In this document: positions 16,870 to 21,056 of the stretch, piece by piece
How the letters are laid out: each line of letters begins with the position of its first letter
Position numbering within the stretch: the stretch's first letter is position 1
From: Asaia bogorensis
GTDB lineage: Bacteria > Pseudomonadota > Alphaproteobacteria > Reyranellales > Reyranellaceae
Assembly: GCA_945889625.1 (NCBI GenBank)
Contig: CAMDCE010000011.1
Location: forward strand, 1 to 64,000
Direction of reading: 5' to 3'
Length of the DNA stretch: 64,000 bases
Notes under the pieces: generated by a model
The model's input: the letters and a program-made list of their open reading frames with translations, nothing else
Told to the model about the DNA's origin: nothing
Database searches by the model: none
Position numbers and translations under genes: made by a program

Positions 16870-16958
16870 TGGTGCCCGCTGCTGGACTCGAACCAGCACG
16901 GCCCTTTCGGGCCTTCGGATTTTAAGTCCGATATGTCTACCAATTCCATCAAGCGGGC
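16870..16958 (-). tRNA. tRNA-Leu (anticodon UAA)
   Basis: Reading the minus strand, the acceptor stem GCCCGCT pairs with AGCGGGC and the CCA end is encoded. The anticodon stem TCGGA/TCCGA encloses loop CTTAAAA, giving anticodon TAA. A long variable arm (GGCCCGAAAGGGCC) is typical of class II leucine tRNAs, and the T arm GCTGGTTCGAGTCCAGC is canonical. Length 89 bases including CCA. Confidence 0.95.
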
Positions 16959-17003: not shown

Positions 17004-17612
17004 ATGCGTACCATCCTGACCTGTCTGCTCTTAGGTCTGCTGGCGGCATGCGCCGACCAGCAGGCGGCGCGCGCCCCGGCGCCCGATCCCTATGCCGCGT
17101 TGCTGGCCGATTTGCGCAACGGCGGCTACATCATCTATCTGCGCCATGCCGAGACTGCGACCTGGTCGGAGCCGACCGTACGCGATCTGGCGGACTGCTC
17201 CTGGCAGCGCAATCTCAACGAGCATGGCCGCGAGCAGGCGGCGCTGATCGGCGCCAAGCTGCGCGAGCAGCGCATCACCGCCAAGACGCTCGAGGCAAGC
17301 CCGTTCTGCCGCACGCGCCAGACCGCCGAGCTGGTGTTCGGCCGCGCCCCTACGCTCAATCCCGATCTTCTCTATCATGTGACCCAGACGCCGGCGCAGG
17401 TGGCGGCCGCCGACGACAAGCTCAAGGTGCGATTGGGCGCTCGTCCGCCGGGCGGCGGCAACCTCGTGCTGATCGGCCATGCGCCGACCATGCGCGACGC
17501 TGCCGGTGTCGAATTGCCCGAAGGCCAGGGTGCAATCGTCAAACCGAACGGCGACGGCACCTTCAAGGTCGTGGGGCGGCTCAGCGTCTACGGGATTGCG
17601 CCGACGCCGTAG
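17004..17612 (+). CDS. Histidine phosphatase-family lipoprotein
   Basis: A 202-residue lipoprotein: lipobox LLAAC puts the modified cysteine at residue 16. The phosphatase domain has the catalytic RHAE (YLRHAETATW), SPFCRTRQTAE and the second histidine in LIGHAPTMRDA. This resembles SixA/phosphoglycerate-mutase-type enzymes, here anchored on the periplasmic side. The C-terminal GDGTFKVVGRL region resembles other secreted members. It ends tail-to-tail over the last 25 bases of the convergent bufC gene. Substrate unknown. Confidence 0.85.
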   Translation: MRTILTCLLLGLLAACADQQAARAPAPDPYAALLADLRNGGYIIYLRHAETATWSEPTVRDLADCSWQRNLNEHGREQAALIGAKLREQRITAKTLEASPFCRTRQTAELVFGRAPTLNPDLLYHVTQTPAQVAAADDKLKVRLGARPPGGGNLVLIGHAPTMRDAAGVELPEGQGAIVKPNGDGTFKVVGRLSVYGIAPTP

Positions 17613-18397
17613 CCGCCGATCATCCCTTCCTCGACCCAGGAGCGTAGCAGGCCGGCGGTGCGCTGGGCGGCCTGGGCCTCGTCGGTGAACGGTATCGCGG
17701 CCTCGCAGATCTCTGGGAAAGTGCGGCCGGCGATCAGGGCGTCGAGCAGCACGGCCTCGTCGGGCTCGAGGGAACGGAAAAGCGACAGGAACTGCGGCCG
17801 CCAGATCGCCCATTCCACGGGCCCCTCCTGGCGTGCGACCTCGAGGTGGCCCGGTTCGACCTCGTCGCGCCGCTGGTAGGCCGCCGGAGTGGCGAAGTCG
17901 AGCGTCAGCCGGCGCAGCGAGGGCAGCGGCGTGAAGCTGAGCGTCAGCCAGTTTTCCGGCGGCAGGGCCATCAGCGCCGCGGCCTCGACCGGTTCGGCAT
18001 CGGGGCAGTCGAAGGCCTCGCCCAGCAGCCATTCGAAGCGCGCCATCTCGGCGGCAGCCGGCGAGCTTTTGAATGGCGGCGTGGTGCCGAGAAAATCCGC
18101 AAGTTTGGCGCCGAACCAGCGCACCGAGGGATGGCGCGAGGGATGGGCGGCGATATAGGCCCGCGCCAAGCCGTCGAATTCGGCGGGCCCGGTCATTGCC
18201 ATCACGCCGGGATAGTCGATGCCCAGCACCTCGATCAGGCGAAGCGCATAGGCGTCGCGATAGACGCCGAGCAACAGCTCGCGCGAGGCCTTCCTGGTAT
18301 TGCGCACCGATCCAACGAAGCCGTCGGAACTCTGCAGCAGGTAGTCCTGGAAGGCGCGCTGCAGGTCGGCGAGCGATCCTGCGTTGGATCGGTTCAC
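17588..18397 (-). CDS. bufC: BufC/HvfC-type DUF2063 protein (bufferin maturation partner)
   Basis: A 269-residue protein with the DUF2063 N-terminal domain (LADLQRAFQDYLL, then ELLLGVYRDAYALRLIEVL). It belongs to the MbnC/HvfC/BufC group, which bind the MNIO maturase and position the precursor peptide. The start is GTG overlapping the end of the maturase gene by four bases, so the two are translationally coupled. C-terminal residues are less conserved. Its 3' end overlaps the convergent lipoprotein gene by 25 bases. Last gene of the four-gene bufferin operon. Confidence 0.85.
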   Translation of the reverse strand: MNRSNAGSLADLQRAFQDYLLQSSDGFVGSVRNTRKASRELLLGVYRDAYALRLIEVLGIDYPGVMAMTGPAEFDGLARAYIAAHPSRHPSVRWFGAKLADFLGTTPPFKSSPAAAEMARFEWLLGEAFDCPDAEPVEAAALMALPPENWLTLSFTPLPSLRRLTLDFATPAAYQRRDEVEPGHLEVARQEGPVEWAIWRPQFLSLFRSLEPDEAVLLDALIAGRTFPEICEAAIPFTDEAQAAQRTAGLLRSWVEEGMIGGYGVGAIP

Positions 18398-19221
18398 GCG
18401 GCCGCCTCGCGGCCGGCCTTCGCCGCGACGTCGCGCGCCACCTCGAGCTCGGCCACCAGCTCGGCGTAGGGTGGGATATTGTCGTCGCGCTCGATCATGG
18501 TCGGCACGCCGGGAAACAGCCGCACCGCTTGGCGATAGAGATCCCACACGCCTTCGACGATCGGATGGTCGTGGGTGTCGACGATGTGCGTGCCGTTGTT
18601 CTCGTGTCCGGCGAGATGGAATTGGCGCACCCGCTCGCGCGGCATGCCGCGCAGGAAGGCCATGGCGTCGAACTCGTGATTGTAGGCGCTGACGAACACG
18701 TTGTTGACGTCGAGCAGCAGCTCGCAGTCGGCGCGCCTGGCGAGCTCGGCGATGAATTCCCATTCCGTCATCTCGGACGCCGCATAGGTGACGTAGCTCG
18801 AGACATTCTCGAGCACCAGCCGGCGGCCGAGATAGTCCTGTACGCGGGCGACGCGTTCGGCGAGATGGTCGAGCGCCTCGCCGGTATAGGGCAGCGGCAG
18901 CAGGTCGTGCATGTTGGTGCCGCGCAGGCCGGTGAAGCAGAGATGGTCGGAGACCCACAGGGGCTGCACACGAGCCGCCAGCGCCTTCAGGCCGGCGAGA
19001 TAGTCCATGTCGAGCGGATCGATCGAGCCGATCGACAGCGACACGCCGTGGAGCGCAATCGGATAGTCGCGGCGGATGGTGTCGAGCCAATGGAGCGGGC
19101 GGCCGCCGGGGACCATGTAGTTCTCCGACAGCGCCTCGAACCAGCTCACCTTGCCGGGCGACTGGGCGATCTCCTCGTAGTGCTGGTGGCGCAGGCCCAG
19201 GCCGAAACCGATGTCGCTCAT
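18394..19221 (-). CDS. bufB: BufB/MNIO maturase (DUF692 family)
   Basis: A 275-residue member of the DUF692/MNIO family of multinuclear iron oxidases related to MbnB. Family landmarks are GFGLGLRHQHYEE at the start, FEALSENYM, LHGVSLSIGS, VSDHLCFTG, LENVSSY, LLDVNNVFVSAYNH, HLAGHE, DTHDHPI and MIERDDNIP, which carry the His/Asp/Glu iron ligands. Such enzymes convert precursor cysteines, in bufferins to thiooxazole-type groups that bind copper. The ATG for MSDIGFG was chosen; the extra upstream residues in frame show no homology. Two cysteine-rich precursor genes lie just upstream. Confidence 0.9.
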   Translation of the reverse strand: MSDIGFGLGLRHQHYEEIAQSPGKVSWFEALSENYMVPGGRPLHWLDTIRRDYPIALHGVSLSIGSIDPLDMDYLAGLKALAARVQPLWVSDHLCFTGLRGTNMHDLLPLPYTGEALDHLAERVARVQDYLGRRLVLENVSSYVTYAASEMTEWEFIAELARRADCELLLDVNNVFVSAYNHEFDAMAFLRGMPRERVRQFHLAGHENNGTHIVDTHDHPIVEGVWDLYRQAVRLFPGVPTMIERDDNIPPYAELVAELEVARDVAAKAGREAAA

Positions 19222-19311
19222 GCGATGGACTCTAGTCCAACTCAGCAGGTCGGACCATGCCGACAAGGCAGACGCTTGGTGCAGCGCGTTTCCATTTGAG
19301 TGCAAGCCGCT

Positions 19312-19548
19312 CTAGGTCAACGGCCTGCCGCCCAACGCGGTGCATTCCAGCGCCGTACCGGTGACGGTGAGGCCCTTGCCCTTGCACATATTCATGCCCT
19401 TGCACGCGGTCATGGAGCTCTTGCAGGCGCTCTGGCCCTGGCAGGCGTTGATGCCGTAGCAGTTGTGGGTTGCCTGAGCACGTGCTGCGACACCGAGCGT
19501 ACCTGCGGCGAACATCGACGCTGCCGCAATGACCAACGACCTGTTCAT
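19312..19548 (-). CDS. bufA2: Bufferin precursor, BufA2-like (copy 1)
   Basis: A 78-residue precursor peptide: a Sec signal of about 24 residues (LVIAAASMFAAGTLGVAARAQA), then a small cysteine-rich core. Six cysteines at 30, 36, 42, 49, 55 and 69 fall in C-x5-C-x5-C-x6-C-x5-C-x13-C, exactly the spacing of the neighbouring copy. Gly, Lys and Asn between cysteines (ACKGMNMCKGKG) match the BufA2 style of bufferin. A modified, exported peptide would bind copper in the periplasm. The ATG was chosen with GGGAGCAAAGAG before it. It lies 90 bases upstream of bufB. Confidence 0.87.
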   Translation of the reverse strand: MNRSLVIAAASMFAAGTLGVAARAQATHNCYGINACQGQSACKSSMTACKGMNMCKGKGLTVTGTALECTALGGRPLT

Positions 19549-19586
19549 CTCTTTGCTCCCTCGGAAGTGACTTGCAGCACGAAAAA

Positions 19587-19826
19587 TCACAGCACCTTGC
19601 CGCCCTTCGAGGTGCACTCGCCAGCGCTCACGACTTCGTTCCAGCCTTGGCCCTTGCATGAATTCTTGCCCTTGCACGAGGACGACCCGGTCTTGCAGGC
19701 GCTGGTTCCCTTGCACGAGTTGATGCCGCTGCACTTCACGGCGCCCTGCGCCGACGCGACCGACGCCAGGCTGCCCGCGGCGAACAACGCCGCTGCCGAA
19801 GCGGCGAGAAGGATGCGCTTGTTCAT
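19587..19826 (-). CDS. bufA2: Bufferin precursor, BufA2-like (copy 2)
   Basis: A 79-residue precursor, first gene of the operon. Signal peptide to about Ala26 (LFAAGSLASVASAQ), then six cysteines at 32, 38, 44, 51, 57 and 71 in a CSGINSCKGTSAC-type array with identical spacing to copy 1. The core differs mainly between cysteines (about half identical by eye), so the two are diverged duplicates rather than a recent copy. A strong GAGGAG precedes the ATG by six bases. Located 38 bases upstream of copy 1; both feed the BufB and BufC genes downstream. Confidence 0.9.
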   Translation of the reverse strand: MNKRILLAASAAALFAAGSLASVASAQGAVKCSGINSCKGTSACKTGSSSCKGKNSCKGQGWNEVVSAGECTSKGGKVL

Positions 19827-19919
19827 CGTGAACTCCTCTGCACGAACCGTCGGACCGATCCTGACTCCGCGCGCCTCCGTCGTGAAGTCAGGGCTTGGCG
19901 ATGGAGCGTGATTTCCCGA

Positions 19920-21056
19920 TCACCGCTGCGTGAAGCGGGCTGGCGATAGCACGGCCTCTGCGACGCCGAGCGCTGCGATATCGCCTGGCAAACCCTTGCC
20001 GAGCGCCAGGCTCGCGGCCAGGCGCCCGGCCGCGGCGCCGGTCTGGATGCCATAGCCGCCCTGGCCGGCCAGCCAGAAGAAGCCTTCGACCGCGGGGTCG
20101 TAGCCCACCACCAGGTTCTTGTCGGCGACGAAGCTCCTGAGGCCGGCCCACTTGTTCTTGACGCGGTGTATTTGCAGCGTGCTCGCCGTCTCGATGCGGT
20201 CGACGGCGGTGGCGATGTCGATCTCCTCGGGCTGCGCGTCGCAGGGCGGCGAGGGCGTCTCGTCGGCGAGTGAGCCCAAGAACTGGCCGACCTCGGGCTT
20301 GAAATAGAAACTCTCGTCGAAGTCGATCAGCATCGGCATCCGCGCGAGTTCGAGACCGGGCGGCGAATCGAAGGTGAACGCGGTGCGCCGCTTGGGCACC
20401 AGCCCGATCGGTTTCGTCCCGGCCATTGCGCCGAGCACGTCGGCCCAGGCGCCGGAGGCGTTGACGACGTGGGCGGCGCTCACCGTGTCGCCATCGCGTA
20501 GCCTGATCGACCAGCGTCCTTCCTTGCGGTCGAGTGCGGCGACCTCGGCGTTCAATCGCAGCACCGCGCCGGCTGCGCGCGCGCCTTTGAGGAAGCCGCC
20601 GTGGATGGCTGCCACGTCCATGTCGTCGGCGTCGGGTTCGTAGACCGAGCCGCCGTCCAGCACCGCGGGACGGATCAGCGGCTGCAGCGCCAGCGTCTCC
20701 TTGAAATCGAGCCGGCGCACGCTCGGCACCAGGGCGGCAAATTCGGCCGCCGCCTTGTCCATCGCCGCGCCCTGGCTGGCGCGGCCGGCGATCACCGCGC
20801 CGCGCGGCGTGAGCAGCGGATGGTCGGCGAAGCCCTGTGGCGGCCGGCGATAGAACAGCCCGCTCGCCACCGTGATGGCGCGGATCGCGGGGCTGCCGTA
20901 GGTCTCCGAATGCAGCGCCGCCGACCGGCCGGTGGTGTGATAGGCCGGCACGTGCTCGCGCTCGAGGATGATCACCCGGGCGTGCGGCGCAAGGGAATAG
21001 GCGGCGGAAACTCCGGCGATGCCGGCGCCGACGATGGCGAAATCGAAATCCTGCAT
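19920..21056 (-). CDS. FAD-dependent oxidoreductase (DAO family)
   Basis: A 378-residue flavoprotein. The N-terminal Rossmann motif is IVGAGIAGVSAAYSLA and the second nucleotide-contact region is ILEREHVPAYHTTGRSAA. The substrate domain has DMDVAAIHGGFLKGARAAGA, and the C-terminal FAD contact is WLAGQGGYGIQTGAAAGRLAA. This is the pattern of D-amino-acid/glycine oxidases and dehydrogenases. No signal peptide, so cytosolic. Located upstream of the bufferin genes on the same strand with a 93-base gap; no evidence that it takes part in bufferin chemistry. Substrate not determined. Confidence 0.87.
   Translation of the reverse strand: MQDFDFAIVGAGIAGVSAAYSLAPHARVIILEREHVPAYHTTGRSAALHSETYGSPAIRAITVASGLFYRRPPQGFADHPLLTPRGAVIAGRASQGAAMDKAAAEFAALVPSVRRLDFKETLALQPLIRPAVLDGGSVYEPDADDMDVAAIHGGFLKGARAAGAVLRLNAEVAALDRKEGRWSIRLRDGDTVSAAHVVNASGAWADVLGAMAGTKPIGLVPKRRTAFTFDSPPGLELARMPMLIDFDESFYFKPEVGQFLGSLADETPSPPCDAQPEEIDIATAVDRIETASTLQIHRVKNKWAGLRSFVADKNLVVGYDPAVEGFFWLAGQGGYGIQTGAAAGRLAASLALGKGLPGDIAALGVAEAVLSPARFTQR

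Follow-up and report, generated by a model that had tools for sequence, protein, structure and literature searches.

A probable Buf2-type bufferin operon with two precursor paralogues and one maturase pair in a Reyranellaceae genome

Why does one operon encode two unlike precursor peptides beside a single maturase and its partner? The question is raised by four tightly packed minus-strand genes (17588-19826) in the window, by which we mean the whole 64,000-nucleotide stretch analysed (positions 1 to 64,000 of contig CAMDCE010000011.1, assembly GCA_945889625.1, filed as Asaia bogorensis with a GTDB lineage in the Reyranellaceae). A preliminary description of this DNA had read the genes as an operon for bufferins, a class of copper-binding modified peptides, and its coordinates, strand and gene order are all correct. 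We consider it very probable that these genes form a Buf2-type bufferin operon, in which two precursors are served by a single maturase complex. As an operon it is an ordinary further example of this type, and its class is well supported.

Family identity of the four proteins

Both precursors score above the cut-off (60 bits) of the BufA2 profile NF050166: bufA2-a (19587-19826, minus strand, 79 aa) reaches 84.2 bits (E = 5.2e-24) and bufA2-b (19312-19548, minus, 78 aa) 66 bits (E = 2.5e-18). The DUF692/multinuclear non-haem iron oxidase (MNIO) maturase bufB (18394-19221, minus, 275 aa) scores 380 bits against the BufB profile NF050167 (cut-off 310, E = 5.1e-114) and 367.4 bits against PF05114. 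Its partner bufC (17588-18397, minus, 269 aa, GTG start), of the DUF2063 or PME-type 1 kind, scores 73.7 bits against PF09836 (DUF2063; cut-off 27.2, E = 1.5e-20). The preliminary description had proposed comparing the precursors with the BufA2 family and the maturase with the MNIO family; all of these scores lie above their cut-offs and bear out the bufferin class. The gene layout agrees with that description as well. Intergenic distances are 38 bp from bufA2-a to bufA2-b and 90 bp from bufA2-b to bufB, bufB and bufC overlap by the four bases described, and both precursor translations have the identical spacing that had been reported, C-x5-C-x5-C-x6-C-x5-C-x13-C. Read by eye, the precursor N termini look like signal peptides, with a charged start, a hydrophobic stretch and ASA or ARA before Q.

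Aligned to 3bww, bufB has the blocks HG, SDHL, EN, LDVNN, H-AGH and ERD in common with it, and the iron ligands presumably lie within these blocks; a sequence search of the PDB also matches bufB to 8hci and to MbnB chains. The structure model of bufC (42 sequences, pLDDT 94.2, pTM 0.89) resembles TglHI chain A (8hi7, E 5.9e-7), which from its chain length we infer to be the partner TglI, and NGO1945 (3dee, E 1.1e-5, TM 0.76 by target). These were obtained in a fold search in which 3 of 122 matches had E <= 0.001. A weak match to the lasso-peptide leader-binding B1 chain 6jx3_B (E 0.22, probability 0.99) points weakly to a part in the bufC model like a RiPP (ribosomally synthesised and post-translationally modified peptide) recognition element (RRE). 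The PF09836 match and the modelled fold of known MNIO partners agree with the DUF2063 partner named in the preliminary description.

The precursors match no Pfam model at or above cut-off in a profile search. Several results weigh against this reading of the operon. A precursor structure model is poor (pLDDT 56.5, pTM 0.33). Among NCBIfam profiles bufC approaches only HvfC, far below its cut-off (31.1 versus 142 bits), and its sequence has zero PDB matches up to E = 1. No copper gene occurs among the few operon neighbours to which the scan was confined, the rest of the window lying outside it. In the sections of Antoine 2025 (PMC12452194) on Buf2, the modifications are not chemically identified. 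The same sections report that Buf1 of Caulobacter and, in preliminary work, Buf2 act in copper homeostasis, and by analogy both window peptides may be modified and bind copper.

To judge from the sequence by eye, both precursors would be synthesised in the cytosol and bear Sec signal peptides. BufC, like MNIO partners and weakly like leader-binding RRE chains in its modelled fold, would hold the precursor. BufB would then oxidise the inner Cys-Lys cysteines, Cys2 to Cys5, to 5-thiooxazoles, and Cys1 and Cys6 would pair as a disulfide, as the Buf1 and captophorin literature and the lysine pattern described below suggest. Going by the family, the products would be exported to the periplasm and chelate excess copper there.

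The cysteine-lysine pattern and the two precursor groups

Our genus precursor set holds 84 rows (83 hits over the cut-off and one at 56.1 bits), and 80 of them fit the strict six-cysteine spacing and serve for the residue counts. Lysine follows Cys2 in 79 of these 80, Cys3 in 78, and Cys4 and Cys5 in all 80, and follows Cys1 in only 9 and Cys6 in 1. The Cys1-Cys5 spacing is kept in 80 of the 84 rows; mean identity over the 80 rows is 78% in the Cys1-Cys5 region and, on 600 sampled pairs, 48% in the signal peptides and 38% in the tails. In the four non-fitting rows, Cys4 is absent (L137, L141, L165) or Cys1 and Cys3 are (L155). Cys4 and its surroundings read S-P-A-K or S-P-G-K in L141:6211-6441, L165:6186-6416, L137:6205-6441, L004:3831-4061 and L064:4546-4800; this Cys4-variant BufA2, a natural three-site substrate, occurs in loci of Reyranella type and in one from Bradyrhizobium.

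The two window precursors differ in this pattern. Lysine follows each of Cys2-Cys5 in bufA2-a (NSCKGTS type), whereas bufA2-b reads NACQGQS and is the sole one of the 80 canonical genus precursors without lysine after Cys2, with glutamine there; by eye, it also has an unusual methionine before Cys5. Gadgil 2025 (PMC12668002), in its sections on substrate groups, places BufA2 in the Cys-Lys group, models a contact of the substrate lysine to BufB2-Asp251 and describes Cys-Lys maturases as having Asp, after ERD, at the FonB-Phe250 site. The window bufB reads ERDD from residue 244, which by motif rather than structure alignment puts Asp at the equivalent site. Because the Lys-Asp251 contact is modelled, bufB has ERDD and the lysine is absent, Cys2 of bufA2-b may be handled differently. 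With glutamine in place of this lysine, bufA2-b would probably lack one of the modifications or acquire it more slowly.

Among the 61 genomes searched, BufA2 over the cut-off occurs in 27, of which 25 are among the 37 genus genomes (own included). The 22 operons with BufB contain 48 of the 84 rows, with arrays of 1, 2, 3 and 4 copies in 7, 7, 5 and 3 operons, so that 15 of 22 are tandem; at least one single-copy operon, L140, may have a longer array, as it is close to a contig end. The remaining 36 rows come from loci that lack BufB. Six of these (4 loci), at contig ends or in the main operon's upstream setting, were set apart as contig-edge rows, which leaves 30 satellites. We also compared named relatives, the best 80 of 558 confirmed BufB relatives, which include genus members and several loci on short contigs; the nearest are Enhydrobacter/Reyranella records. 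A genome grouped in the same genus as the window, G012, shares an identical 5-kb stretch with a Reyranella soli record, which assigns the own genome to that genus as grouped here. Two or more BufA2 genes occur in 17 of these 80 loci, one in 60 and none in 3, and three of the 17, all Reyranella-type, have four copies. Antoine 2025 (PMC12452194) moreover already describes precursors in tandem, orphan ones and genomes with several to each MNIO pair, so the duplication that the preliminary description singled out as distinctive is common. That description had also stressed the lack of an adjacent DoxX-type gene. The absence stands, with none found in the window using one Reyranella DoxX seed and a profile grown from it that may miss remote ones, but it is not distinctive: within the DNA retrieved for each locus, a DoxX-like frame appears in 14 of the 80 named loci and none is shown in the other 66. 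The own genome has three DoxX genes, on other contigs.

Is the pair a recent duplication? The two window precursors are 48% identical. In a quick maximum-likelihood tree (92 rows, 79 columns; low resolution, with 37 of 88 inner branches open), bufA2-a groups with seven rows (six first-position, one contig-edge) and bufA2-b with twelve (eight later-position, three satellites, one first-position), each at a Shimodaira-Hasegawa-like approximate likelihood ratio (SH-aLRT) of 97. The end branch is 0.21 for bufA2-b versus 0.084 for bufA2-a. The position labels have to change several times along this tree and do not form one clean split. The residue after CKG is linked to position, with threonine (CKGT) in 19 of 22 first or single genes versus 5 of 56 later or satellite genes (Fisher p = 7.5e-11 for related rows that are not independent; 6 contig-edge rows left out). 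In the named loci this residue also varies (Q 49, T 27, K 14, others). We therefore reject a recent duplication, since bufA2-a and bufA2-b lie in different paralogue groups; on this low-resolution tree they appear as paralogues of separate groups kept side by side.

In the own genome (5.2 Mb, 132 contigs, 94% complete) three BufA2 genes pass the cut-off, two in the window and one on contig 24, and there are two MNIO matches, the window bufB and one on contig 80. The third BufA2 gene (G000:C24:65582-65791; L117:7577-7807, minus) sits roughly 3 kb short of a contig end. Upstream of it is a gene with a cytochrome c domain (PF00034), with an unidentified frame between the two; MNIO and DUF2063 are absent from the surrounding 10.7 kb. 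Relatives go further. In G024, 9 BufA2 genes pass the cut-off, in G004 (7% contaminated) 8 and in G002 6, with two, one and one BufA2-linked BufB, respectively. Counting all MNIO matches, Buf1-type and others included, gives 3, 3 and 2, so another MNIO could help in these genomes. G016, a single contig given as 100% complete, combines 3 BufA2 genes with just one MNIO match, so its satellite would be matured only in trans, if at all. Gene content of this kind suggests that satellite precursors may be matured in trans.

Two further arrangements were seen. In three genomes (L123, L129, L150), a satellite BufA2 is directly followed by a histidine kinase gene (HATPase_c confirmed on L129). BufB-like MNIOs at G024:C50:155217-155996 (L175) and G001:C119:12439-13218 (L121) score 355.5 and 359 bits against PF05114, and a BufA2 or BufC match is absent from the 12.5 kb around each.

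Candidate switches at the operon and its satellites

A candidate operator, the triple half-site TCAC-N6-GTGA-N8-TCAC (19908-19933, minus), lies upstream of bufA2-a and is the single match of this 26-mer in the own 5.2-Mb genome. Within 180 bp upstream of precursor genes, GTGA-N8-TCAC is present at 15/22 first-position genes, 0/26 later genes, 0/30 satellites and 3/6 contig-edge rows, and TCAC-N6-GTGA at 17/22, 13/26, 1/30 and 5/6. These upstream stretches, which can overlap neighbouring genes, make up 15,225 bp of 720,906 bp of loci and hold 18 of 23 matches of the former and 36 of 46 of the latter. The 26-mer was searched in 37 genomes, 23 of the genus and 14 others (14 further genus genomes lay outside the search), and has 21 matches, all in the genus, versus 1 for the reversed control. 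Thirteen of the 21 stand in front of bufA2 genes. Three of the 8 off-operon matches are upstream of a DoxX gene (PF07681; G018, G019, G021), one in G016 is upstream of a small frame preceding a molybdopterin oxidoreductase gene, and the remaining four look like chance or are ambiguous; we took G002:C36 and G003:C31, the latter inside a coding frame, as chance. The own DoxX orthologue (L215, 77% identical) has no 26-mer site at up to 2 mismatches in 3.2 kb.

Some of this evidence counts against an operator. GTGA-N8-TCAC is absent upstream of 7 of the 22 first-position genes, although in two of the seven (L135 and L144) the 26-mer is present at one mismatch, and the loci compared are related. 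Ahead of the window operon, TCAC-N6-GTGA runs over the final codons and stop of a flavin adenine dinucleotide (FAD) oxidoreductase gene (19920-21056, minus, PF01266), so part of the conservation may be protein-driven. As a genome-wide marker this short half was rejected, with 20 sites in the own genome versus 17 for the reversed control. The position of the triple half-site is consistent with a regulatory role at the operon. Behind the G016 site, at L196:1010-1441 (minus; contig 1 near 3,688,900), the small secreted-looking frame contains one in-frame TGA just before GGC (U-G-G-C); by eye it is perhaps a selenoprotein of thioredoxin-like kind, and when read through the TGA it has zero Pfam or NCBIfam matches.

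The gap between bufA2-b and bufB (19222-19311) has predicted RNA hairpins. The stretch 19222-19340 folds better than its shuffles (z = -2.54, 3 of 200 as good), which is not so for the 38 bp that separate the window precursors (z +0.85). Across the genus, z falls below -2 for 14 of the 22 stretches preceding bufB and for 15 of the 26 that lie between precursors, counts that stand without folded control gaps. The hairpins before bufB are a possible attenuator or mRNA stabiliser and fit a precursor-rich operon. Shine-Dalgarno-like sequences are, by eye, better at the precursors than at bufB (GAGGGAG ahead of bufA2-b), and together with the hairpin would fit an excess of substrate over enzyme.

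Some satellites appear to have another switch. In 10 relatives, 12 BufA2 satellite loci without a maturase lie between sigma-NrsF genes and DoxX, each with a divergent extracytoplasmic function (ECF) sigma gene, NrsF behind it and DoxX downstream (families confirmed on L160); two of these loci, L145 and L146, come from one genome with 6% contamination and are nearly equal in sequence. The motif GTAACG-N16-CGAA(T/C) starts 69-73 bases before the BufA2 start in 12/12 sigma-linked satellites and occurs in 0/70 rows whose locus lacks a sigma gene (background 0.003 per 180 bp). A sigma gene lies near two of the operons, and the promoter motif is present in L141 but not in L165. Both of these, and also L004 and L064, are Buf2 loci that contain an MNIO and have sigma and NrsF matches in the same locus, 0.2 to 5 kb away. 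Caulobacter sigma-F uses GTAACC-N16-CGAA, answers chromate and cadmium, and drives DUF2282-DUF692-DUF2063, DoxX and yedY genes, according to the relevant sections of PMC3511200. We rejected sigma-F control of the window operon, as there is no GTAAC-N15-18-CGAA(T/C) within 180 bp upstream of either precursor and the own genome, 94% complete, lacks an NrsF match.

The cluster survey in Antoine 2025 (PMC12452194) found sigma/NrsF genes with Buf1 and none with Buf2; it took MNIO genes as the centre of each cluster, so BufA2 satellites would fall outside it. Among the matches listed in searches of the open-access literature, none reports BufA2 satellites with sigma-F or Reyranella bufferins, and among those listed for Reyranella together with copper none looks relevant.

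Around the window operon, a histidine-phosphatase-type gene (17004-17612, plus, PF00300) is convergent to bufC, and the 3′ ends of the two overlap by 25 bases. A tRNA-Leu (taa) at 16870-16958 (minus) is the sole tRNA found in the window.

Alternative readings and known systems

What, then, would a second precursor be for? It may simply raise dosage, both copies receiving the same modification and having the same ligand and role, and array sizes ranging from one to four within one genus speak for this. The position-linked threonine after CKG, in rows that are not independent, the differing tails and the modest identity of the window pair speak against it, and we regard it as somewhat unlikely. 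Less probable still is that bufA2-b is produced yet left wholly or partly unmodified by BufB, and acts as a plain thiol peptide or is a decaying gene. Its longer end branch, its lower profile score, the lost lysine after Cys2 and the methionine before Cys5 (by eye) look like drift, and Antoine 2025 (PMC12452194) raises unmodified precursors as a possibility. Yet its frame is intact, its six cysteines keep the exact spacing, GAGGGAG (by eye) precedes it, and its group of 13 rows comes from several species (SH-aLRT 97). A role with another metal or in redox stress instead of copper seems the least likely of these. It draws on the chromate and cadmium response of the Caulobacter sigma-F genes (PMC3511200), the gold-induced and mercury-linked bufferin genes mentioned in PMC12452194 and the off-operon operator matches near DoxX and the molybdopterin oxidoreductase; the copper homeostasis role of the Caulobacter Buf1 and, in preliminary work, of Buf2 (PMC12452194), and the lack of an NrsF match in the own genome, tell against it.

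For the Reyranella group as a whole a further reading, which we hold to be less likely than not, is a hub: one BufBC pair would serve up to eight precursors, in the operon and as satellites, under different switches (the triple half-site versus sigma-F/NrsF with DoxX), and paralogues with altered Cys-Lys sites would vary the number of copper-binding rings. If so, the cell would tune its copper buffer by its choice of substrates and not of enzymes. Antoine 2025 (PMC12452194) asks whether one MNIO-partner pair acts on several precursors or some stay unmodified. The window operon is an entry to a many-precursor network able to test this open question of precursor sharing, and the genus offers a natural test set: G016, the Cys2-Gln, Cys3-Ala and Cys4-less variants, and precursors under separate promoters. 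Were satellites found to carry the modification, this would establish that a hub enzyme can mature a Sec-exported RiPP in trans.

The closest system within the own genome is a Buf1 operon on contig 80 (G000:C80; L002:702-2554). It has the same A-B-C order and a BufB at 343 bits (cut-off 310), and its partner, like the window bufC, matches HvfC below the cut-off (66.8 versus 142). Its precursor is DUF2282 (85.6 bits) with 4 cysteines, in contrast to the six-cysteine BufA2 of the window, and its BufB reads EWDT where the window bufB reads ERDD. The Caulobacter sigma-F/Buf1 operon CC3254-CC3257 (PMC3511200; PMC12452194), as described there, is alike in its MNIO, DUF2063 protein and cysteine-containing precursor. 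Its precursor is likewise DUF2282, and the window operon has no sigma-F promoter and its genome no NrsF match. The satellites of the relatives resemble the Caulobacter sigma-F regulon in their sigma, NrsF and DoxX genes, with GTAACG in place of GTAACC, a difference at the sixth base.

The captophorins (fontiphorin, oxazolin/HvfABC and gonophorin; PMC12668002), in the accounts given there, also combine an MNIO with a PME1 partner and a cysteine target. Lys-Cys captophorins have EGKCG repeats with lysine before cysteine, whereas in the window lysine follows cysteine, and the window bufB has Asp where their FonB has Phe250. The published Buf2 bufferins (Buf_6/12Cys; PMC12452194) are, from their description, the nearest match, with a six-cysteine precursor (its signal peptide judged by eye in the window), a BufB-type MNIO and a DUF2063 partner in the order A-B-C. 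Compared with these, the window has two diverged paralogues side by side, one with Cys-Gln at Cys2, and its relatives have BufA2 beside sigma, NrsF and DoxX genes.

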